This document shows positions 3,955 to 26,021 of a stretch of DNA of 44,985 nt, piece by piece. Source of the DNA: Fibrobacter sp. (GTDB lineage Bacteria; Fibrobacterota; Fibrobacteria; Fibrobacterales; Fibrobacteraceae); the NCBI GenBank assembly GCA_031271785.1, contig JAISUZ010000023.1, forward strand, positions 1-44,985. The letters are read 5' to 3'. Within the stretch, counting starts at the first letter, position 1; each line of letters begins with the position of its first letter. The position numbers were made by a program, and so were the translations under genes. Under the pieces are notes generated by a model. The model made no database searches. It saw only the letters and a list, made by a program, of their open reading frames with translations, and was not told the origin of the DNA.

Positions 3955-6477
3955 ATGGCTAACGAAAAAGCAAAACGCCCCACTCAAAAACCGAGAGCGA
4001 AGAAGCCCGCCAAGTCCGATAAGGCTTGCTGCTGCAATTCGACTCAATACGGTTATTTTGACGACGTTCGCAAAGAATATATTTTGACAAACCCCGCTAC
4101 CCCTATCAAATGGTGCAATTATGTAGGCACTTTGAATTTCGGCGGGATTGTGGATACGACCGGCGGCACGCTGATTTGTAAAGGCGACCCGGCTCTGAAC
4201 CGCATTACCAAATATATCGCTCAAATGCCGAGTTCGGATTTTAAGGCAAGTACGGTTTATATCCGCGTTAAAGACGGTAAGTCTTATCAGGTTTTTTCTC
4301 CGTTTGTAACTCCGACATTGATTCCGATGGACAAGTGGGAATGCCGCATTGGGCTTTCTTATTCGCGCTGGATTGCCGAAGTGTTCGGACTCCGCATTCA
4401 AATTACGATTTTTGTGCCGACAGGCTCTAACACGCTCCTCCAGGATATTCAGGTCACGAACATTTCCCGCGCGGCGAAAGAAATAGATGTTATCCCTGTT
4501 TACGAATTCAGCCATTTTGAAGCCGAAAAGCAGCTCACAAACGCCGACTGGGTTCCGCAAACCATGACTTTGAAGGCGCACCCGGAAAAAACGGGGCACC
4601 TGGTTCTCGAGCAATACGCTTATATGAAACGCGATTACGCGGTGAACTATGTAACCGCCGATGCCAAAGTTTCCAGTTTCGACGGCGATCGCCGCCAATT
4701 CCTGGGCGCGAACGAAATGGGCAGCTGGGCGCTCCCGCTTGCTCTCGGTGAAAAAGAACTCTCGAACAGCGAATGCGACCGCGGCGATAATATCGCGGCT
4801 CTCATGATTCACGCCGGAAAACTTGCTCCGAAAAAAACTTTCCGCACCTGTACCCAACTCGGTCAGGAACAAAGTCTGAAAGTAGCGGCTAAAGCGATTA
4901 AGAAATACCGCGATTTGAAAAATGTTGATAAGGCTTTCGATGAACTCGCCAAGTTCTGGACCGATTATCTTTCCGCTATTGAAGTGAAAACTCCGGATGC
5001 TTCGTTTAACTCTATGGTGAACGTGCATAATCCGCGCCAGTGCCACACTACGAAAAACTGGAGCCGTTATCTTTCTCTGTATCAACTCGGTTACGGTACC
5101 TCACGCGGTATCGGTTACCGCGATTCGAGCCAGGATTTGCTCGGCGTGATGAGTCACATGCCCGAAGAAGCGCTTGAACTCGCGAAAAATCTTCTTTCCG
5201 TACAACGTCCGGAAGGCAACGCCATGCACCAGTATTTGCCTTCCAAACTGATTCTCGGCGAAGGCGATGAAGCAAACGAAGGCGATTCCCGCGAAAAAGC
5301 GGCGGACGGTTACTGCGACTGGTACGGCGATGACCATTTGTGGATTGTTCTCACGATTGCCGGCTACCTGAAAGAAACCGGAAACCTCAATCTCTTGAAA
5401 CAGGAAATTCCGTTCTACGAAAAAGGCAAGAAACGCGCCGAACGCCAAAAAGGTACGGTTCTCGATCACTTGCAGCGGAGCCTCCAATTCACTCACGATC
5501 ACATGGGCAAGCACGGGATTCCGCTTCTCGGTTTTGCCGACTGGAACGATACCATGAATCTCGCTCCGGGCGCCGAATCCACATTCAACGCAAGTCTTTA
5601 CGGAAAAGCGCTTTTGGAGATGATGGATATTTGCGAAGCTACTGGCGATATGAAGTCTCTTGAAAAATACAAGAGCTGGTATCAGGAAGTGAAAAAAGCC
5701 TTGAACGATAACGTTTGGGACGGCGCGTGGTGGAAACGCTGGTTCGACAAAGACGGCGTGGCTTACGGTTCCAAAGATCAGAAATACGGTAAGATTCACT
5801 GTAACGGTCAATCCTGGCCGGTGATCAGCGGCCTTGCCGAAGGCGAACGGGCGCGCAAAGCTCTCGACAGCGTGAACAAGTATTTGAATACATCGAACGG
5901 GATCAAGCTTTCCTGGCCGGGTTATAAGGGTTTCGATCCGAAAGTCGGCGGGATTTCCACGTATCCTCCCGGAGCGAAAGAAAACGGCGGGATTTTCCTC
6001 CACGCAAACCCGTGGGTGATGATTGCCGAAACGATCATGGGCAACGGCGACCGCGCTTACGAATATTACAACCAAATTAACCCGGCGGCTAAAAACGGCA
6101 AGCTGGATGAGTTCGAATCCGAACCTTACTGCTATCCTCAAAATATTTTGGGCAACGAACATAAGCAATTCGGTTTGGCGCGCAACGCCTGGCTTTCGGG
6201 TACGAGTTCCTGGACTTACCAGGCCGCGACTCAGTACATTCTCGGCATTCGCGCAAGTTTCAGCGGGTTGATTATCGACCCGTGCATTCCTTCTTCCTGG
6301 GAAGGTTTTGAAGCGACACGCAAATACCGCGGGGCGACTTACCAAATTACGGTGAAGAACCCTAAGGGAATTTGTAAGGGTGTTGAAAAAATGGTTGTCG
6401 ATGGTAAAGAAATCGACAGTAATGTGGTTCCGTTCTTCAAGAGCGGTACGCATAAAATTGAAGTGACTCTCGGGTAA
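3955..6477 (+). CDS. GH94 cellobiose/oligosaccharide phosphorylase
   Basis: This is a cytoplasmic phosphorylase that would split a beta-linked disaccharide with phosphate, giving a sugar 1-phosphate and saving ATP. The 840 residues carry GH94 landmarks: the N-terminal YGYFDDVRKEYILTNPATP block (about 32-50), a beta-sandwich domain, then an (alpha/alpha)6 domain with GIGYRDSSQDLLG (Arg389) and FADWNDTMNL (DWND 529-532), which holds the family's general-acid Asp. A Lys-rich tail with CCC (about 1-30) precedes the domain and is unusual. Cellobiose is the likeliest substrate in a cellulose degrader, but laminaribiose or chitobiose cannot be excluded by eye. GGAG sits 5 nt before the ATG. The upstream neighbour is padR; a strong terminator follows. 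Confidence 0.85.
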   Translation: MANEKAKRPTQKPRAKKPAKSDKACCCNSTQYGYFDDVRKEYILTNPATPIKWCNYVGTLNFGGIVDTTGGTLICKGDPALNRITKYIAQMPSSDFKASTVYIRVKDGKSYQVFSPFVTPTLIPMDKWECRIGLSYSRWIAEVFGLRIQITIFVPTGSNTLLQDIQVTNISRAAKEIDVIPVYEFSHFEAEKQLTNADWVPQTMTLKAHPEKTGHLVLEQYAYMKRDYAVNYVTADAKVSSFDGDRRQFLGANEMGSWALPLALGEKELSNSECDRGDNIAALMIHAGKLAPKKTFRTCTQLGQEQSLKVAAKAIKKYRDLKNVDKAFDELAKFWTDYLSAIEVKTPDASFNSMVNVHNPRQCHTTKNWSRYLSLYQLGYGTSRGIGYRDSSQDLLGVMSHMPEEALELAKNLLSVQRPEGNAMHQYLPSKLILGEGDEANEGDSREKAADGYCDWYGDDHLWIVLTIAGYLKETGNLNLLKQEIPFYEKGKKRAERQKGTVLDHLQRSLQFTHDHMGKHGIPLLGFADWNDTMNLAPGAESTFNASLYGKALLEMMDICEATGDMKSLEKYKSWYQEVKKALNDNVWDGAWWKRWFDKDGVAYGSKDQKYGKIHCNGQSWPVISGLAEGERARKALDSVNKYLNTSNGIKLSWPGYKGFDPKVGGISTYPPGAKENGGIFLHANPWVMIAETIMGNGDRAYEYYNQINPAAKNGKLDEFESEPYCYPQNILGNEHKQFGLARNAWLSGTSSWTYQAATQYILGIRASFSGLIIDPCIPSSWEGFEATRKYRGATYQITVKNPKGICKGVEKMVVDGKEIDSNVVPFFKSGTHKIEVTLG

Positions 6478-16499: not shown

Positions 16500-16937
16500 T
16501 CACTCCGCCAAATCTTGAAGCGTCACCACGGGAACGTCGAGATAATCTTTCCAGGATTCATTCTCGGTGAGAACCGTGTCGGCGCCCGTATGATAAGCGG
16601 TGGCGAGCTGCAAGGATTCTTCAAAAGTCATGTGATGCTCCGCCCGGTATTCGGCGGCCGCGGCCGCGATGGAAAAATCGACTTCCCGGGTCATCACCAA
16701 CCGCGACCGTGAGAAAAATTCCTGATATTGCCGCGCAAGCACCGGATTCTTTTTCTCGTAGGCCCGGTGCGCCACCAAATGCAAAGTAACCGCGCTGAAC
16801 ACCAGTTTGGACGCTCTTTCGTAAACGGAATCCAAAACTTTAGACACAATGGGATAATAATCGGGATGATATTCCAAAAGCCGGATCAGCGGCGCGGAGT
16901 CCATAAATAAAATGCGGCTGTTCTCAATTCGTTTCAT
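16500..16937 (-). CDS. PIN-domain protein (putative ribonuclease)
   Basis: This 145-residue protein resembles VapC-type PIN ribonucleases. The first acidic residue sits in FMDSAPLIRLLE (Asp13), and the C-terminal half has MTFEESLQLATAYHTGADTVLTENESWKD, where PIN proteins normally carry acidic residues for metal binding; Glu replaces the usual central Asp. The length fits VapC. No antitoxin-like gene is adjacent: the gene upstream on the same strand, 2 bp away, encodes a secreted protein of normal length. It may therefore be a solitary PIN nuclease rather than half of a toxin-antitoxin pair. No Shine-Dalgarno sequence is obvious before the ATG at 16937. Confidence 0.7.
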   Translation of the reverse strand: MKRIENSRILFMDSAPLIRLLEYHPDYYPIVSKVLDSVYERASKLVFSAVTLHLVAHRAYEKKNPVLARQYQEFFSRSRLVMTREVDFSIAAAAAEYRAEHHMTFEESLQLATAYHTGADTVLTENESWKDYLDVPVVTLQDLAE

Positions 16938-16939
16938 TT

Positions 16940-17950
16940 TTAATTCTCAAAGATTTCGGCATAAGCCGCATCGTCGCGCGTTCCGTAACGCACCATTTTC
17001 AGCCGTCCGGATTTCGGGTAATAATACCAAAGCATCCATTCGTTTGCCATGTCGGTTCTTCTGGTTTTGAGAAGAAGCGGTTTTTCCCCTTGATACCAAT
17101 CTTTTTTTGAAGGGATCACGCGTTCGTAAGGGCGGTAAGTATGCACTTGTCCGTCTCCGTGACGTTCGATCAAGCCTTCTCCCCCGGCGCTCCATTTGAT
17201 TTCAACGCCTTTCCCGTTTTCGCCTTTCGACTTTTCGCAGGAGGATGGGCCTTCGGGGCACCAGATAAAAGTTCTGAATCGAAAGTTTTCTTCTTGCATT
17301 TTGAATGTTTCCGCGCGGCGCGCGCCGCCGGTTTGGTAGCGGTCGTAAACGCCTTCCAGCGTTGCGGAACGTCCGTTATATTCCTCACAGCCTTTTTGTT
17401 TTACGGTAGCGACCCTTCCCGAGATCAATACGAGTATGTTGCAAGAACTTTCTTCCTTGTAAATAATTCCTTTCACTCCGTTTTTTTCTTGCATGCCGAG
17501 GTTCCCGGCTTCAAATTCGGCGCGGTCATCGGCAGCTCCGTTAATAATCGTTACATTATATTTTTCAGGATTGTTCGGCGATTTTTGCAAATAAACCTGC
17601 CCGGTGGCGGATTCGTAAATTCCGCTCAAATCCAAAGAACGCTGTTTGAATTCGGCAAGAGCGGCGCGTTTCACATAACCTTTCCCGAATTTGGTTTTGA
17701 CGGGAATATACTCGGGCGGAGAATTTGATTTGACCTCCACATAAGTCACGACTCTTTTTCGTTTTCCTTTTTTATCCTTTTTATAGGAGACTTTTTTCTC
17801 TTTTTTGGGCGGAACCGGAAGTTCGCTCCAAGTATCCGCGTAAGTAAGTTCTCCCAAACGACTTTTTTCGGATGCATCCTTATAAACCCAAAGTCCTTCG
17901 CCGGCGAAACAGGCAAAGGACAATCCTAGAATCAAAATTAAGTATTTCAC
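16940..17950 (-). CDS. Secreted protein of unknown function
   Basis: I do not recognise this 336-residue protein. It starts with a clear signal peptide (MKYLILILGLSFACFAGE), so it is exported, probably to the periplasm or surface. Residues about 50-70 are an extremely Lys-rich tract (KKEKKVSYKKDKKGKRKR). The first 110 residues could be an SH3-like or wall-associated module (GLWVYKDASEKS, VKTKFGKGYVKR). The rest is beta-rich, with four Cys that could form disulfides (SCNI, GCEE, WCPEGPSSC). Translation seems to begin at GTG 17950, where AGGGA abuts the start. It lies 2 bp from the PIN gene and is divergent from the outer-membrane protein gene, 100 bp away. Confidence 0.65.
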   Translation of the reverse strand: MKYLILILGLSFACFAGEGLWVYKDASEKSRLGELTYADTWSELPVPPKKEKKVSYKKDKKGKRKRVVTYVEVKSNSPPEYIPVKTKFGKGYVKRAALAEFKQRSLDLSGIYESATGQVYLQKSPNNPEKYNVTIINGAADDRAEFEAGNLGMQEKNGVKGIIYKEESSCNILVLISGRVATVKQKGCEEYNGRSATLEGVYDRYQTGGARRAETFKMQEENFRFRTFIWCPEGPSSCEKSKGENGKGVEIKWSAGGEGLIERHGDGQVHTYRPYERVIPSKKDWYQGEKPLLLKTRRTDMANEWMLWYYYPKSGRLKMVRYGTRDDAAYAEIFEN

Positions 17951-18050: not shown

Positions 18051-19553
18051 ATGAAAAAACTGTTCCTCGCTTCTATCATTGCTATTTCGGGAGCATTTGC
18101 TCAAGAAGTGGCGCCGGCGACGGCTCCTGTACCCGCACAAGCTCCGGCTGCAACCACAGTTACTCCGGCGACTCCCGCACCGGTACAACCCGTTGCAGCA
18201 ACTACCGAAACCGCAACTCACGCTCCGGCAGCGGAACATCCCGTGACTACAGAAGTGGATGCGGCGCACCCTGTTGCAACCACCACCGAAACCGCAACTC
18301 ACGCCCCGGCGGCTGAACATCCCGTAACTACGGAAGCTACTCCGGTCGCTCAAGCCGACAGCACTCCGGCTGCGGAACCGATAGCGGAAGCAGTTCCGGC
18401 AACGGAACCCGCCGCCACAAGCGCTCCGGAAGCAACACAGGAACCCGCGCCGGCTCCGGTAGTAATTGTCAATGTAATTGAACCCGAAAAACCGCATGTC
18501 ACAAAAATCAGAGCCAAAAGAGTTGCTTTGATCGAAATCAATGAATTCAAATTCGATGTAAACGCAAGCTTTGAAATTCAAGCCGGCAAAACATTCTGGT
18601 CAAGCGAAGATGAACCGAGAAAAACCAACCTCGACGAATGGTGGGGGCGCGCCAACCTCGGTTTCGTGGCCGAAGCCAATGACTTCAAAGGACAAATTTT
18701 GCTTCACCTTTACCCGGGCGATTTAAGCAACTATGAGGAATTCAGCCGTAACGACGACAACTTCGCAAATAACGGCGAAAGAGAAGGTTACAAAAATGTC
18801 GATATTTTCGAACTTGAGGAAGCTTGGGCGATGCAAAAAACCCGGTTTGTGAATTTCAAGCTGGGCCGCTGGGAAGAAAACTACAAATCCGGTGATTTCT
18901 TCGGCGGATACCTGAACGGTTACAAAAAAGGTTTCCGTTCCACAACCACCGCTGAAAACCAATTCCAGTTCGGTTTAACTCCCATGAAAGGCGTGGACGT
19001 AAACGTGGCTTTCATCAGTACCGAATCCTTTTTGAATAAAGGCGATTTGCGTTTGATGTTTGAATTCTCGGAACTCAAAGGGCTTGAAAACATGACGTTC
19101 AATTTGGGTTACCGCACCAACGTTTTCGATAAAGTTTACAACTCCAACAGTGATGTGCGCCATCAAATCGCTTTGGCCGTAAAACTTGACGTGATTAAGA
19201 ATACGTTCTCGCTCTTCGCGGAAGGCGCCTTGCTCAATATTGACGCTCAAGAAGTAGACGGCGAAGACAAAATCATCAAACCGAAAAAAGATATCGACAT
19301 GACGCTCCCGGTAACCGGCGGTATCATTCTTCAAACACCGGTAGTGGATAGAGTTATCCTAGAAGCCGAATATATCAAAGACCGCGCCGATACCGAATTT
19401 GCGGAAACAAACAAGCATATCAAAGATGTGCTCGGCGCACTTTATTTGGAGAAAGACCTTACCAGCCGCTTCACACTTTCCGCCGGCTTCCACAGTTTCC
19501 AAAATTCGAGAGACTTTACTCTTTCCGGAAACTTGATCGGGCGCATCAACTGA
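18051..19553 (+). CDS. Outer-membrane beta-barrel protein with Pro/Ala/Thr-rich linker
   Basis: This 500-residue protein has a signal peptide (MKKLFLASIIAISGAFAQ), then about 125 residues almost entirely of Ala, Pro, Thr, Val and Glu, and finally a barrel-like domain from about residue 160 with alternating polar and hydrophobic strands (FKFDVNASFEIQAGKTFW, FKLGRWEENYKSGDFFGGYLNG). The barrel recalls porins with an aromatic girdle, and it ends in a strand, FTLSGNLIGRIN. The linker could span periplasm or peptidoglycan, as in some OmpA-like or TonB-like proteins; that is inference. Within it a 21-residue unit is duplicated. AAGGAG lies 9 nt before the ATG. A perfect-palindrome terminator follows. 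Confidence 0.75.
   Translation: MKKLFLASIIAISGAFAQEVAPATAPVPAQAPAATTVTPATPAPVQPVAATTETATHAPAAEHPVTTEVDAAHPVATTTETATHAPAAEHPVTTEATPVAQADSTPAAEPIAEAVPATEPAATSAPEATQEPAPAPVVIVNVIEPEKPHVTKIRAKRVALIEINEFKFDVNASFEIQAGKTFWSSEDEPRKTNLDEWWGRANLGFVAEANDFKGQILLHLYPGDLSNYEEFSRNDDNFANNGEREGYKNVDIFELEEAWAMQKTRFVNFKLGRWEENYKSGDFFGGYLNGYKKGFRSTTTAENQFQFGLTPMKGVDVNVAFISTESFLNKGDLRLMFEFSELKGLENMTFNLGYRTNVFDKVYNSNSDVRHQIALAVKLDVIKNTFSLFAEGALLNIDAQEVDGEDKIIKPKKDIDMTLPVTGGIILQTPVVDRVILEAEYIKDRADTEFAETNKHIKDVLGALYLEKDLTSRFTLSAGFHSFQNSRDFTLSGNLIGRIN
18192..18336 (+). repeat. In-frame tandem duplication in the Pro/Ala/Thr linker
   Basis: Two 64-nt units, 18192-18255 and 18273-18336, encode VAATTETATHAPAAEHPVTTE and VATTTETATHAPAAEHPVTTE. 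Most nucleotide differences are silent, so the peptide is conserved after duplication. Confidence 0.85.
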
Positions 19554-19884: not shown

Positions 19885-20976
19885 TCAATCTTTGGCGTTT
19901 AAAATGCGGAGATAACTTTCATAGCGCGGGCGGCTGATTTTTCCGTTTTCCACTGCGCGAAGCACTGCACAACCCGGCTCGGAGATATGCAGACAATCAC
20001 CGTACTTACAAGTGAATAAATCATCTTCAAAAAAACCGGGGAACGAACGCGCGAGTTCATGCCTGTCCAAATCGAGAATACCGAGTGCGCGAATGCCCGG
20101 CGTATCAATTACCATGCCGCCGCCCGGAAGGTCGAGAAGGCTTGAAGATGTAGTGGTGTGCCGCCCCTTTCCGTCTTTATCGCGCACATAGCCCGTGCGG
20201 AGTTCCGCCGAAGGTACTAACAAATTAATAAGGCTTGATTTCCCTACGCCGCTTTTCCCGCTGAACACCGAAACTTTACCGGCCGTAATGCGTTTCAATG
20301 CATCCAAACCTTCTCCGGTTTTGCAGCTGAAAGGAATAAAGCCGTCCACGAGTTTCACAAAGTCGAGAATCTCATTTGGGATTTCGGCAACAAGGTCGAT
20401 TTTATTCAATACCATCACGAGCGGCAAATGATTCCAATTCGCCGCAAGAAGAAAGCGGTCGGCAAAGCCGTAACTGAATGAAGGCTGTTCCACGGAAGCC
20501 ACGAGAATCACTTGATCGATGTTCGCGGCGAGCGTAAGTTCTTCGCGGATCCGGTCGCGCGGCCCCGGACGTTTCAGTTCCGATCGCCGCGGCTTCACTT
20601 TCACGAGAGAATATTCCCCGGCAAGCGTTACGCCAAGCACCACGGAATCTCCCACCGCCGGAAACTCGCCGAGTTCATCCACCACGGTCGCGCGGTAAAT
20701 CGCACTCACCGTTTCTCCCGTACTCAGCCGCACTTCGAAGGTCCGGCGGTGCACTTCCTGCACCAATCCCTCAACCGTACATTCTTCGGAAAAATCGTTC
20801 ACCGGATTTTTTAAACGCTTTAAACGCGGATTTTTAAACTCGCGGCTCCACCGTTCCTTCACCGGACGTTCGTCAAGAACTCCTTTTTCCCACATTTCCA
20901 TAGCATTTACGCGCTTTGCGCGGTTTTCCCGCCGTGAAACATGAGTCCCTTTTTCATTTTCATTCCGGCTACTCAT
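19885..20976 (-). CDS. rsgA: Small ribosomal subunit biogenesis GTPase RsgA
   Basis: RsgA is a circularly permuted GTPase that checks late maturation of the 30S subunit. The 363 residues show an N-terminal basic tail (about 1-45), an OB-fold (CTVEGLVQEVHRRTFEVRLSTG), then permuted G motifs in the order G4 (LNKIDLV), G5-like (FSCKTGEG), G1 (GKSGVGKSS), G2 (GRHTTTSS) and G3 (DTPG). The C-terminal zinc site has CKYGDCLHISEPGC. The Lys/Arg-rich N-terminal tail is longer than in many homologues. ATG 20976 has no Shine-Dalgarno sequence; later in-frame Met codons (MEMWEKG) are possible starts. The start lies only 25 bp from the divergent prenyltransferase start. A type A repeat follows the stop by 5 bp. 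Confidence 0.93.
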   Translation of the reverse strand: MSSRNENEKGTHVSRRENRAKRVNAMEMWEKGVLDERPVKERWSREFKNPRLKRLKNPVNDFSEECTVEGLVQEVHRRTFEVRLSTGETVSAIYRATVVDELGEFPAVGDSVVLGVTLAGEYSLVKVKPRRSELKRPGPRDRIREELTLAANIDQVILVASVEQPSFSYGFADRFLLAANWNHLPLVMVLNKIDLVAEIPNEILDFVKLVDGFIPFSCKTGEGLDALKRITAGKVSVFSGKSGVGKSSLINLLVPSAELRTGYVRDKDGKGRHTTTSSSLLDLPGGGMVIDTPGIRALGILDLDRHELARSFPGFFEDDLFTCKYGDCLHISEPGCAVLRAVENGKISRPRYESYLRILNAKD

Positions 20977-21001
20977 CGAAGACAAATGTAGTTTTTATCA
21001 C

Positions 21002-21844
21002 ATGAATACCGAAATGAGTCTCCTGTTAAAAATGCTTCGCCCCGGAAATATGCTGATCGCAATCATCACACTCGCCGCCGGTTTTTTTATTTCCGGCGTT
21101 TCCCTCGGGCAACCTCTTTTTTTACTCGAAGCTCTCGCCCTCGCCGCTGCCGTCGGGTTCGCCAATGTTCACAATGATATTCTAGATGTTCCCGCCGATA
21201 AAATAAACCGGCCCGGCCGCGCGCTTGCTTCCGGGAACGTTTCCGTACGCGCGGCAACCGTTCTTGCCGGAATCCTTTTTATACTTCCCGTACTGCTTGG
21301 AATCTTCATTTCTTTCACGCATACGGTTTTCTTTATTCTCCTCCTCGGCGCGCTTTATCTTTACAACGCCCGCTTGAAACACATTCCTTTGATCAAAAAC
21401 ATTTCCGTCGCGCTCCTTTGTATTTCACCGCTCGCGCTCGCTTACCTCGCCGGCAAAAAATTAAACGTCCTTATCCCGCTTGCCTTTTTTGCATTCCTGT
21501 TAACACTCGCTCGGGAAATTCTCAAAGATCTTGAAGATATCGAAGGCGACCGTATCGCCGAAATCACCACGCTGCCGCTCGTGATCGGAATCAAGCCCAC
21601 TCAAAAAATAGTCCAGGCGCTCCTTATTTTAAGCGCCCTGATGCTCCCTCTCCCGGTTTTTGTCAAAATCTATCCGCTGTCCTTTTTGATACTCGGTTTA
21701 CTCTCCGTAGTTCCGTTCCTCGTTCTCGGTTTCCGCCGAAACGCTCAAAACAAGTTTCGGGCAGCGCAGGTTCAAATCAAAATAGCCATGTTCTGCGGGA
21801 TCTTTACCCTCATCCTCTCTTTCGGAATCCGCCGGTTTTTCTAA
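21002..21844 (+). CDS. UbiA-family prenyltransferase, DGGGP-synthase-like
   Basis: This is a polytopic membrane prenyltransferase of 280 residues with about eight to nine helices. The two Asp-rich prenyl-diphosphate motifs are NDILDVPADKINRPGRAL (58-75) and REILKDLEDIEGD (about 170-182). The NRPGRALASG and EDIEGDRIAEITTLP wording is closer to archaeal geranylgeranylglyceryl-phosphate geranylgeranyltransferases than to UbiA or MenA, whose second motif differs. A product such as an ether-lipid precursor or a quinone precursor is possible; the acceptor cannot be settled from sequence. No quinone gene is nearby. No Shine-Dalgarno sequence is visible at ATG 21002, and downstream Met codons (5, 11) are alternatives. 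Confidence 0.82.
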   Translation: MNTEMSLLLKMLRPGNMLIAIITLAAGFFISGVSLGQPLFLLEALALAAAVGFANVHNDILDVPADKINRPGRALASGNVSVRAATVLAGILFILPVLLGIFISFTHTVFFILLLGALYLYNARLKHIPLIKNISVALLCISPLALAYLAGKKLNVLIPLAFFAFLLTLAREILKDLEDIEGDRIAEITTLPLVIGIKPTQKIVQALLILSALMLPLPVFVKIYPLSFLILGLLSVVPFLVLGFRRNAQNKFRAAQVQIKIAMFCGIFTLILSFGIRRFF

Positions 21845-22029: not shown

Positions 22030-23415
22030 ATGCTTGACGAATTACATGAAGAATGCGGTATTATCGGAATTTTTAACGGCGAGAATGTGTGCAGGAATGT
22101 GTCGATGGGGCTCTATGCCCTTCAGCACCGCGGTCAAGAAAGCGCGGGCATTGCCTACACCAACGGAGAAAAAGTGCGGGTGCGCAAATCCATGGGGCTT
22201 GTATCTGCGCTTGTCCGCGAGCATAACCCCGATGAATTAAAAGGTTTTGCGGCCATCGGTCATGTGCGTTACGGCACCAGAGATTCCGGTTCGCCGGCAA
22301 ACACGCAGCCGATTCTCGTTACTTGCAAATGGGGTTACCTGGCGGTTGTGCAAAACGGATGCATCACAAACGCCTGCGAACTCCGCGCGGAAATGGAAGA
22401 AGCCGGACACATTTTCCAAACTTCTTCCGACTGCGAAATCCTGCTTCACGAAATCGCCCGTACCAAAGCCGACTGCCTCGCAAGCGCCATCAAAACAGTA
22501 CTTGCCAAATTGAAAGGCTGTTTCTGTTTTACGTTCTTAACCAAAGATACCATGTACGTCGCCCGCGACGGATTCGGGTTCCGCCCGCTCGCTCTCGCCC
22601 GTCTGGGAAAAAGCTGGGCTGTCGCGAGTGAAACCTGCGCGTTCGATTTGCTCGGCGCCGATTACGTCCGCGATATTCAACCCGGAGAATTTTTAACCAT
22701 CGGGCGCGAAGGTATTCTCTCGGAATCATTCATTCAAAAGAACCGCAAAGCACACTGCATCTTCGAATACATTTATTTTGCAAGACCGGACTCCAAAATC
22801 TTTGAGCAAAGCTGCGACAAAATCCGCCGGAAAATGGGTAAAAAACTTGCCGAAGAATGCCCGGTAGAAGCAGACATTGTGATTCCCGTTCCGGACAGTT
22901 CCACCACGGCAGCGCTCGGTTACTCGCAAGCCTCCGGAATCCGTTTTGAAATCGGACTTCTCCGAAACCATTACGTGGGGAGAACATTCATTGACCCGAC
23001 TCAAAACGTTCGGGAACAAAAAGTGCGGCTGAAATTCAACCCGATTGAAGGCATCCTTAAAAACAAGCGCGTATGCGTGGTGGACGATTCCATTGTTCGC
23101 GGAACCACCCTCAAAATTCTCACGAAAATGCTTCGCGACGCAGGAGCTGTGGAAGTTCATATCCGCATCGCCTCGTCTCCGGTAGCTCACCCTTGCTTCT
23201 ACGGCATGGATTTCCCAAGCCCCGGCGAACTTTCCGCAAGCGCCATGACGCCCGTGGAAATCGCCAAAATGCTCGGAGTAGAAACTCTCGGTTATTTAAG
23301 CGTGAACGGCATGCGCGAATGCACCGGCGACCCGGATTCTTACTGCTGCGCTTGCTTTGACGCCAACTACCCGGAATACACCGGCCGCGAAAACGAAAAA
23401 AACCGCTGCGGTTAA
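22030..23415 (+). CDS. purF: Amidophosphoribosyltransferase (Fe-S type)
   Basis: PurF makes phosphoribosylamine from PRPP and glutamine, the first committed step of purine synthesis. The 461 residues begin with an 8-residue propeptide (MLDELHEE) before the catalytic nucleophile Cys9 (CGIIGIF), as in the self-processing Bacillus type. The glutaminase domain has YALQHRGQESAGI and GHVRYGT; the PRTase domain has the PRPP loop VCVVDDSIVRGTT. Likely [4Fe-4S] ligands are Cys in HCIFEYIYF, HPCFYG and YCCACFD. GAGGG precedes the ATG by 5 nt. A type A repeat starts 11 nt after the stop. No other pur gene adjoins it, although purB is elsewhere in the window. Confidence 0.95.
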   Translation: MLDELHEECGIIGIFNGENVCRNVSMGLYALQHRGQESAGIAYTNGEKVRVRKSMGLVSALVREHNPDELKGFAAIGHVRYGTRDSGSPANTQPILVTCKWGYLAVVQNGCITNACELRAEMEEAGHIFQTSSDCEILLHEIARTKADCLASAIKTVLAKLKGCFCFTFLTKDTMYVARDGFGFRPLALARLGKSWAVASETCAFDLLGADYVRDIQPGEFLTIGREGILSESFIQKNRKAHCIFEYIYFARPDSKIFEQSCDKIRRKMGKKLAEECPVEADIVIPVPDSSTTAALGYSQASGIRFEIGLLRNHYVGRTFIDPTQNVREQKVRLKFNPIEGILKNKRVCVVDDSIVRGTTLKILTKMLRDAGAVEVHIRIASSPVAHPCFYGMDFPSPGELSASAMTPVEIAKMLGVETLGYLSVNGMRECTGDPDSYCCACFDANYPEYTGRENEKNRCG

Positions 23416-24089: not shown

Positions 24090-26021
24090 ATGAAACATTT
24101 TGCCGGGTTCCTGTTCTTTTGGGTGTTTTTCGGAGGCGCCGCTTTTGCTTTAGCCGATGTTTCCGCGCCTCACACCACAGGCACCGAAACCGATGCCGGG
24201 CGGTGGATTACCGATATTCCTCTCCTCGGACAACGTACTTATGATCTTTCCGGGCATAAATCCGAATGGGTTTTAGCGAATTCCATTATGGGAAACCCGG
24301 ATTTATCGCGGCTCGCCATGGGGCTTTCTTCTCCCACACTCCGCCTCCCCATGAAACTTGCCGGGATTTACACGGAAAGGCTTTATTATGACCGGACTAC
24401 GCTCGGGTTAAACGGGGAAAACGGCTTGCTTTTGGAACCGCACCGCACCGCTCCGATAGATACGCCGCTTGCCGCCATCGTTTGGGAACGTTACGCTTTC
24501 AGCGGCAATTCTTTCCGCCTTGATTTTAAACGCCTCATGACGGATTCCATACAACTTAATTTGGGGCTCGCGTCCCATTCCGCTTCCGGCTCCAAAGAAT
24601 ACCGTTATCAAGACGTGACTCATCAGCCGTTTTTTGCCCTCGGGCGCGATTCGCTTTCCATTCCGTTCCGCGGGCGCAATCTTTCCATGAGCAGTATGCA
24701 CATGAAACCGGAACTCGTGTGGTACCTTCCGCTTGGGGAACTGAGCGTGCATGCCAGTTTTTTGAACGTCAGTAACGATGATCTGCCGCCCTATGCCACG
24801 GTCCGCAACGAACTCGACCTGACTCAATACGATTACATTTCGGAGCCTTTTGAAACCGAACTGGAGTCGAGAAATTACGGCGCGGCACTCCGTTTCGCGC
24901 CGCACCGAATGATTTATTTTCTCGCAGATATTCAAACCGGAACGCATGACATCCGCTACGAGAATCTTCCGGCATGGGTTCAAAAAATTACGCCCACCGA
25001 TACGATTCCCGACACCACCTGGTTTGACAGAGATCCCCGGATTTCTTACGAAGCGACTTCGGGCTCTTTTGCTCTCGGTTCTCCGCTTATACTCAATCCG
25101 AAAATTCATTTGGAATACGAGTTTTTAAACGCTTCTCCCAATGAGATGCAAAAAAAAGAATATGAGCAAGACAGAGAAACCGGTTACCTGCAACTGAGCG
25201 ATACCATCGGTATTTTGCGGTTCCGGGCGCAAACCGGAATGCAGCGGAACAGTTCGCTGGATGATTCGGTTGTATATAGAGACGCCTATTCTCTCTACGC
25301 AGAGCTCGCTCTCCCCTTTCACATTCATTTGATCGGGCGTTACAAACAGGATACGCGGTTCCCGGATATCGCCGAACTCCGTTACACGAATCTCGGGCGG
25401 TTTGCATTTCCGAACAAAGATTTAAAACCCGAAGAACGCCGGCAACTAAGCGGCGATATTCAATGGAATACCAATGCGATTTTCTATGGACTCGGTATCC
25501 GGCAGGAACACTTGAAGTACCCGATTCGAAAGCGCTGGGTAACGCTTTCCGGAATGGATTCGGCGCAAACGGCGTTTCAATGGGTGAACCTGCGCGAAGC
25601 GGAAACGCTGGACTGGACGGTTTCGGCGGGGTTGAAACTCGGGAATTGGCAGCTTTACTGGGAACGCTCAAGCGTGCTGAATCGCCGGATCCGGCTTGTC
25701 GATACGCCGACCCGCTTTTATAAGGGGAGTATTTTTTGGAGCGACCGCTTTGTGGAAGAGCGGCTCGGCGTAAGCGTTCGTTTTGATTTCCAATGGTTTA
25801 ACGAACGTTACGACTGCGAATTGAACGAAGAAAATATTCCGCAATTTGTGCGGTTGAAGCCTTACCTCGCCCTCAATTTTGAGGCGCGCATGGAAATTCT
25901 TTCTTTCAATTTTTATTCGCGGATCGACAACTTGAATCACAGTATGTATTACCCGGAAGCCGGTTACACGCCGGAGGGCGTGCGGTTCAGTTACGGCATT
26001 CTGTGGACATTTAAGAATTAA
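24090..26021 (+). CDS. Outer-membrane beta-barrel protein, TonB-receptor-like barrel without plug
   Basis: This 643-residue protein has a signal peptide (MKHFAGFLFFWVFFGGAAFALA) and then beta-strand-rich sequence to the end, closing on the aromatic strand GVRFSYGILWTFKN typical of outer-membrane proteins. The middle contains RFPDIAELRYTNLGRFAFPNKDLKPE, which resembles the conserved L-x-P-E barrel segment of TonB-dependent receptors. I see no plug-domain motifs or TonB box in the first 150 residues, so it may be a barrel-only relative or a Bacteroidota-type putative porin. The ligand is unknown. No Shine-Dalgarno sequence is clear. Its neighbours (repeat D upstream, bfr convergent downstream) give no functional hint. 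Confidence 0.68.
   Translation: MKHFAGFLFFWVFFGGAAFALADVSAPHTTGTETDAGRWITDIPLLGQRTYDLSGHKSEWVLANSIMGNPDLSRLAMGLSSPTLRLPMKLAGIYTERLYYDRTTLGLNGENGLLLEPHRTAPIDTPLAAIVWERYAFSGNSFRLDFKRLMTDSIQLNLGLASHSASGSKEYRYQDVTHQPFFALGRDSLSIPFRGRNLSMSSMHMKPELVWYLPLGELSVHASFLNVSNDDLPPYATVRNELDLTQYDYISEPFETELESRNYGAALRFAPHRMIYFLADIQTGTHDIRYENLPAWVQKITPTDTIPDTTWFDRDPRISYEATSGSFALGSPLILNPKIHLEYEFLNASPNEMQKKEYEQDRETGYLQLSDTIGILRFRAQTGMQRNSSLDDSVVYRDAYSLYAELALPFHIHLIGRYKQDTRFPDIAELRYTNLGRFAFPNKDLKPEERRQLSGDIQWNTNAIFYGLGIRQEHLKYPIRKRWVTLSGMDSAQTAFQWVNLREAETLDWTVSAGLKLGNWQLYWERSSVLNRRIRLVDTPTRFYKGSIFWSDRFVEERLGVSVRFDFQWFNERYDCELNEENIPQFVRLKPYLALNFEARMEILSFNFYSRIDNLNHSMYYPEAGYTPEGVRFSYGILWTFKN

Follow-up and report, generated by a model that had tools for sequence, protein, structure and literature searches.

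The open reading frame at 21002-21844 of the window (the whole 44,985-nucleotide stretch of Fibrobacter sp. DNA that was analysed) encodes a UbiA-superfamily prenyltransferase of the DGGGP-synthase type rather than the quinone type, a reading supported by profile scores, conserved residues and its position in trees in which the attachment of the quinone group is not fixed. The gene is old in the phylum Fibrobacterota and is vertically inherited. The donor of the enzyme is probably a prenyl diphosphate (C15 or C20), which it would ether-link to the prenylglyceryl phosphate from the host's own GGGP synthase (GGGPS), giving diprenylglyceryl phosphate. Genes of this kind have already been published, by Coleman et al. 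2019 for Fibrobacteres (PMC6431249) and by Villanueva et al. 2020 for Cloacimonetes (PMC7852524). What is new is that nearly all Fibrobacterota, the cultured F. intestinalis among them, have the genes and that EgsA is missing throughout the class, together with the question of C15 or C20 supply and a gene cluster in Poribacteria. The problem of the lipid divide is an old one, for which bacteria that have archaeal-type lipid genes but no G1P dehydrogenase provide a sharp test.

The prenyltransferase, its family and its inheritance

The open reading frame is intact and begins with ATG, and both motifs quoted in the earlier note are found in its translation. The gene, its motifs (assigned by alignment with the DGGGP synthase of Methanocaldococcus jannaschii, MjDGGGPS) and its neighbours are as follows.

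21002..21844, plus strand: DGGGP-synthase-like UbiA-superfamily prenyltransferase, a multi-pass membrane protein of 280 aa (ORF, PF01040, NCBIfam DGGGPS models, 6m31 as nearest solved structure by sequence, and fold Z-score)
21164..21220, plus strand: motif 1, N55-VHNDILDVPADKINRPG-R73; N58, D62 and D66 correspond to MjDGGGPS N62, D66 and D70 (Mg2+ and acceptor site)
21362..21379, plus strand: motif 2, Y121-x4-K126; Y121 and K126 correspond to MjDGGGPS Y125 and K130
21512..21550, plus strand: motif 3, R171-EILKDLEDIEG-D183; D176, D179 and D183 correspond to MjDGGGPS D180, D183 and D187
19885..20985, minus strand: rsgA, divergent neighbour, context only (outside the pathway); PF03193 8e-49, TIGR00157 207 bits (cut-off 100)
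22030..23415, plus strand: purF, downstream neighbour, context only; TIGR01134 480 bits (cut-off 350)

Further out, the ORFs at 16500-16937 (minus), 16940-17950 (minus), 18051-19553 (plus) and 24090-26021 (plus) had no match in Pfam at 1e-4 or in NCBIfam at 1e-3; by eye, the two on the plus strand have the look of outer-membrane proteins.

The 280-aa protein matched Pfam UbiA (PF01040) with 117 bits (cut-off 34; E 1e-33), far above chance. Among NCBIfam models the order was PRK12884, an unspecified prenyltransferase (166 bits), PRK12882 (DGGGPS; 154 bits) and PRK12883 (DGGGPS; 112 bits), with ChlG (57), EboC (51; cut-off 250) and MenA (28) lower. The DGGGPS models outscored all the listed models for quinone, chlorophyll and heme enzymes and for EboC, and none of the NCBIfam models reached its equivalog cut-off, which is 269 bits for PRK12884, 296 for PRK12882 and 353 for PRK12883. 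A sequence search of the PDB returned DGGGP synthase 6m31 as the sole strong relative (E 1.9e-24), followed by chlorophyll synthase (7e-8); a profile match to 6m31 at 4e-87 is circular, the 6m31 sequence having been in the profile. The archaeal enzyme of M. jannaschii (PDB 6m31, 6m34, 7bpu; 27-29% identity) is the nearest characterised relative by sequence. It differs from the Fibrobacter protein, which has a bacterial host, a putative acceptor and donor, scores below the equivalog cut-offs and no EgsA or CarS match in its genome.

Eight residues are named as important in MjDGGGPS, N62, D66, D70, Y125, K130, D180, D183 and D187 (PMC9385802). All eight are present in the Fibrobacter protein and invariant in a 19-row alignment, and several of them are general to the UbiA superfamily. 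When the alignment was extended to 44 rows, seven of the eight, including N58, D62, D66 and Y121, were found in every row, and K126 in 41. The motif 3 positions R171, E172, K175, D176, D179, G182 and D183 were likewise present in 44/44 rows, a conservation that is partly circular, since many of these rows were fetched using motif 3. At the same place, the four MqnP-type loci inspected (L003, L188, L191 and L196) have YATQD...D instead of RE..KD..D..GD.

An AlphaFold2 model, built with 44 sequences (the window protein and its homologous loci), had a mean pLDDT of 95.9 over the whole chain. Its Z-scores were 28.9 against 6m31 (275 residues aligned), 25.2 against A. pernix UbiA, 21.2 against A. 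fulgidus UbiA and 21.1 against UBIAD1. The Foldseek TM-score was 0.77 for both DGGGPS 6m31 and A. pernix UbiA 4od4, and the rmsd was lower for UbiA (2.7 to 4od4 vs 3.8 to 6m31). Because the TM-scores tie, the fold alone does not discriminate DGGGPS from UbiA.

Trees were built from 66 UbiA-like proteins chosen for spread from 131 matching ORFs, together with the window protein, MqnP and PDB rows; MenA and CyoE were left out. In the first tree (78 rows; the MqnP-type row L003 was lost, with less than 10% of the kept columns filled), the window protein was placed with Fibrobacteraceae rows (99/93), which are part of a Fibrobacterota group of 24 rows (91/89). The archaeal DGGGPS mostly formed another group, MqnP and A. 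pernix UbiA formed yet another (100/99), and support was weak for the branch that sets other UbiA families apart from the DGGGPS-like rows (75/94). The second tree was built without L003 and without five long rows (ChlG, A. fulgidus UbiA, L100, L173 and L138). The Fibrobacterota group then had a support of 97/90, and a 100/100 branch separated the window protein, on the side of the DGGGPS, from the MqnP and A. pernix UbiA group (100/100), which holds the MqnP rows of its relatives; in this tree the 15 archaeal rows need two changes. An AU test rejected the arrangement in which the Fibrobacteria rows and the quinone enzymes form one side (p 0.033). When all Fibrobacterota were placed with the quinone enzymes as one side, the arrangement was not rejected (p 0.325), so the attachment point of the quinone group, and hence the rooting of the DGGGPS-like set, is not fixed.

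In the ~1.5 kb flanks of 30 loci of the family, its own included, RsgA was found in 23 and PurF in 15, a synteny that points to vertical inheritance. Recent transfer from archaea is rejected, since the gene falls inside a group that spans the phylum and many relatives share the rsgA-purF synteny. The earlier note had presented the gene as an archaeal-type UbiA in a bacterium, closer to the geranylgeranyl transferase of archaeal ether lipids than to quinone enzymes, with related genes in the FCB group. The family assignment stands, on the model scores, 6m31, the eight residues and the trees, and the host is itself an FCB-group bacterium. An archaeal-type gene in a bacterium is nothing unusual here, given its age and vertical descent in the phylum and a pathway idea that is already published (PMC6431249, PMC7852524).

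Companion genes in the host genome and in Fibrobacterota

The host assembly (2.28 Mb, 95.5% complete, 0.16% contamination), in which the window is contig C75, contains a GGGPS that is not adjacent to the UbiA-like gene, the two lying on separate contigs.

C92:9188-9826, strand not given: GGGP synthase, group II; PF01884 130 bits, TIGR01769 181 bits (cut-off 161.55)

This protein keeps the Tyr...Tyr-x-Glu positions with spacings of 44 and 46, which match the numbers in PMC9385802. The EgsA model NF002022 had no match at 1e-12 in the 95.5% complete genome; the same search on 14 controls gave matches in nine, including B. subtilis and four archaea, but also E. coli. The sole PF13685 match (L002), a candidate G1P dehydrogenase, was rejected as an Fe-ADH (244 bits on the alcohol dehydrogenase model vs 24 on EgsA). 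Of the two genes on whose presence the earlier note made ether-type or mixed lipids conditional, a GGGP synthase was found and a G1P dehydrogenase (EgsA/AraM) was not. As for the outcomes that the earlier note had set against its reading, the protein did not cluster with UbiA or MqnP in trees that hold no MenA row, and a GGGPS is present.

A search of the host genome for CarS (PF01864) gave no match. Two matches to TIGR02032 lie above cut-off (207 and 163 bits) and are, by sequence, geranylgeranyl reductase (GGR) homologues. There are two polyprenyl synthases: the first scored 331 bits on the FPPS model (cut-off 275) and 318 on the GGPP model CrtE (cut-off 460), and for the second, the heptaprenyl synthase model was nearest by rank, with 190 bits, under its cut-off. 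The sole TIGR01475 match at 1e-30 (L003, also L190; 280 bits, cut-off 180.8) is an MqnP-type quinone gene adjoining UbiE (TIGR01934 192 bits, cut-off 158) and UbiX (TIGR00421 206 bits, cut-off 109). A third, very distant UbiA-like protein (L005; contig C14, 1420-2499, minus strand) scored 33 bits, under the PF01040 cut-off; its frame and the end of an acyl-CoA-ligase-like ORF (PRK09274, 341 bits) overlap.

We then surveyed 150 Fibrobacterota genomes, comprising 94 Fibrobacteraceae, 15 others of the same class (Fibrobacteria) and 41 from outside the class. A UbiA-like match at 1e-3 was found in 145 (89/94 in the family and 56/56 outside it), and at 1e-15 in 135; the ten weaker ones (G098, G090, G009, G013, G015, G017, G041, G055, G059 and G065) may be other UbiA genes or fragments. 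GGGPS was present in 141/150 genomes and in 90 of the 94 of the family. With both genes this frequent in the family, assembly contamination is unlikely as their source. Outside the class, all 41 genomes had a UbiA-like match (33 at 1e-15 or better) and 36 had GGGPS. Homologues within the family were 34-49% identical in stretches among the matches listed, and nine Fibrobacterota-type relatives from a scan of named genomes (L108-L116) were 39-43% identical. The Fibrobacteraceae surveyed include the cultured F. intestinalis ATCC 43854 and Fibrobacter sp. UBA1313.

At 1e-12, an EgsA-type G1P dehydrogenase was found in 18/150 genomes, all among the 41 outside the class; none was found at that threshold in the 109 genomes of class Fibrobacteria, and hence in none of the 94 Fibrobacteraceae. 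The gene content outside the class agrees with Coleman et al. 2019, who reported the full set of three archaeal genes for Chitinispirillum and Chitinivibrio (PMC6431249). The Fibrobacteres DGGGPS orthologues listed in that paper share phylum and gene family with the Fibrobacter gene; the difference lies in the G1P dehydrogenase, found in none of the 109 genomes of class Fibrobacteria. CarS (PF01864) was over cut-off in two of the 150 genomes.

GGR was matched at 1e-30 in 138/150 genomes. All ten genomes of one genus of the family (g7: G072, G094, G106, G112, G127, G128, G131, G133, G141 and G142) are without a GGR match at this threshold yet have both the UbiA-like gene and GGGPS. GGR is thus not obligatory, and the genus offers a natural contrast for lipid saturation. 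TIGR01475 was matched at 1e-30 in 104/150 genomes, in 91/94 of the family and in 0/41 outside the class (MenA was outside the search). Classes outside Fibrobacteria thus hold both ether-type synthases and have no TIGR01475 match at that threshold, and this speaks against a quinone role of the UbiA-like gene.

Two genomes of genus g21 (G009 and G013) had no GGGPS match and a weak UbiA match (about 1e-11), and a joint loss of both genes is possible there. At one locus (L101, 774-2219 in G077), the open frame runs to 482 aa, with the UbiA-like domain at residues 200-479; the first 200 residues may be either a fused domain or no more than a frame that stays open upstream.

Proposed function and competing readings

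The reaction that we consider likely would run as follows. A prenyl diphosphate, C15 or C20, would serve as the donor of the UbiA-like enzyme, and its diphosphate would be activated by Mg2+ held by D62/D66 and by the second Asp motif, D176/D179/D183. The acceptor would be the free hydroxyl of the prenylglyceryl phosphate presumably supplied by the genome's own GGGPS, positioned by N58 and Y121. The product would be diprenylglyceryl phosphate. Its backbone might come from G3P, or from G1P of a source not among the known enzymes; an ordinary bacterial CdsA could carry out the activation in place of CarS, and the ether lipids would then enter a mixed membrane. The computed part of this explanation consists of the family, the fold, the catalytic residues, the GGGPS, the GGR homologues, the polyprenyl synthases, and the lack of EgsA/AraM and CarS matches in the host genome.

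Among the closest known systems is that of Candidatus Cloacimonetes, FCB-group bacteria that also have GGGPS, a DGGGPS-like gene, GGRs and two polyprenyl synthases and no EgsA/AraM or CarS, according to PMC7852524. The Cloacimonetes, known from metagenomes, hold the bacterial GGGPS-DGGGPS pair with shown activity in the literature considered here: expression of the two genes in E. coli gave mixed membranes (PMC7852524). Their genes are co-localised, whereas in the Fibrobacter host they lie on separate contigs and their activity is predicted. The Fibrobacteraceae differ from them in having a cultured member. Because the family includes F. intestinalis ATCC 43854, whether the lipid is made, on which backbone and with which chain length are directly testable in pure culture. 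The literature matches listed contain no report of an isoprenoid ether lipid from a Fibrobacter. If archaeol itself is made, the use of faecal archaeol as a proxy for ruminant methanogens (PMC7397718) would have to be checked for a contribution of bacterial ethers.

The acceptor cannot be read from a DGGGPS-like sequence: UbiA-297 (EboC) farnesylates quinolines (PMC9235831). An enzyme of DGGGPS-like sequence could use some other lipophilic or aromatic acceptor, as this flavobacterial protein does, with the GGGPS monoether being used separately, as in Bacillus; we regard this as unlikely. UbiA-297 is, like the Fibrobacter protein, a UbiA-superfamily member from FCB bacteria, and it prenylates 8-HQA though its closest characterised relatives include a putative Sulfurisphaera DGGGPS (PMC9235831). 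The Fibrobacter protein, moreover, falls under every equivalog cut-off, and its gene sits between rsgA and purF rather than beside GGGPS. Against this, UbiA-297 belongs to an ebo cluster (PMC9235831), whereas no ebo model matched in the ten flanking proteins searched with Pfam or the seven searched with NCBIfam (four match neither library). The score of 51 bits against a cut-off of 250 leads us to reject an identity with EboC/UbiA-297 itself. The retention of GGGPS and the UbiA-like gene by nearly all genomes of the phylum, and the proximity of the two genes in Poribacteria, also weigh against a different acceptor.

For FCB genomes that lack G1P dehydrogenase, Coleman et al. 2019 proposed degradation or salvage, with GGGPS and the UbiA-like enzyme working in reverse on archaeal ether lipids of neighbouring methanogens (PMC6431249). 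At least one relative (L112, yak) comes from the rumen, a methanogen habitat. We consider this reading very improbable for the Fibrobacter gene: retention is near-universal in the phylum, including genomes that have G1P dehydrogenase, and the host has two GGR homologues, enzymes of a kind more in keeping with synthesis than with degradation.

That the protein is the quinone prenyltransferase (UbiA, MenA or MqnP) of the host is scarcely credible, and we reject it: superfamily and fold are shared and the AU test does not reject an attachment of the quinone enzymes beside the whole Fibrobacterota branch, but the host has a separate MqnP-type gene of the same superfamily beside ubiE and ubiX, with a different motif 3, relatives of the UbiA-like gene occur in classes without a TIGR01475 match at 1e-30, and a clade of Fibrobacteria rows with quinone enzymes is rejected.

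Prenyl chain length and the Poribacteria gene cluster

The short-chain polyprenyl synthase of the host resembles FPP synthases more than GGPP synthases, by 331 vs 318 bits only, so that a C20 donor is not evident. This synthase has Phe at position -5 of the first Asp motif together with a two-residue insertion (DDLPCID). Of 46 polyprenyl synthases inspected across the phylum (mostly the best-scoring ones), 42 share this combination; the other four have Ala. Bacterial FPP synthases combine the insertion with an aromatic residue. Archaeal GGPP synthases have a bulky residue at -5 and no insertion, and type-II enzymes have the insertion and small residues (PMC9385802). The Fibrobacterota combination fits none of the three GGPP-synthase types described in that paper, whose rule does not by itself predict FPP for it. 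Exactly one polyprenyl synthase was found at 1e-20 in 24 of the 41 genomes outside the class.

From these sequence features, a C15 donor for the UbiA-like enzyme is a live possibility. The full proposition, that culturable Fibrobacteraceae make isoprenoid diether phospholipids without a known G1P dehydrogenase and from farnesyl (C15) rather than geranylgeranyl chains, is unlikely when taken as a whole. If it were true, the membrane would be mixed, and its ethers would differ from archaeol in tail length and perhaps in stereochemistry.

In 11 of 12 Poribacteria loci, the homologue shares its strand with GGGPS at a distance of 1.26-1.91 kb. Co-localisation of bacterial GGGPS and DGGGPS genes seems restricted to Cloacimonetes according to Villanueva et al. 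(PMC7852524), and no report of it in Poribacteria was found among the literature matches listed. One of the loci, L183, has the following arrangement.

L183 3980-7082 (OY282444.1), one strand: Poribacteria cluster of DGGGPS-like, ferredoxin-like, GGR-like and GGGPS genes
L183 4863-5078, same strand as the cluster: ferredoxin-like protein, 72 aa, between the DGGGPS-like and GGGPS genes
L183 5081-6274, same strand as the cluster: GGR-like gene, between the DGGGPS-like and GGGPS genes

The reductase of this cluster contains one in-frame TGA, at 5216, at the place of the Cys of a PVRC-type motif in the reductases L080, L081, L230 and L231. If the TGA is taken as U, a full-length protein results, which scores 234 bits on TIGR02032 (cut-off 158.8) and 291 bits on a Thermoplasmatales digeranylgeranylglycerophospholipid reductase model. 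Rfam gave no match at E 1 in the region of the TGA. The RNA immediately after it can form a hairpin that beats 199 of 200 shuffles over 45 bases (z -2.9); over 60 bases the signal is less clear (z -1.6). The L183 reductase may be a selenoprotein, or else a broken or misread gene. At another Poribacteria locus, L153, an rRNA-methyltransferase-like gene lies between the homologue and GGGPS.
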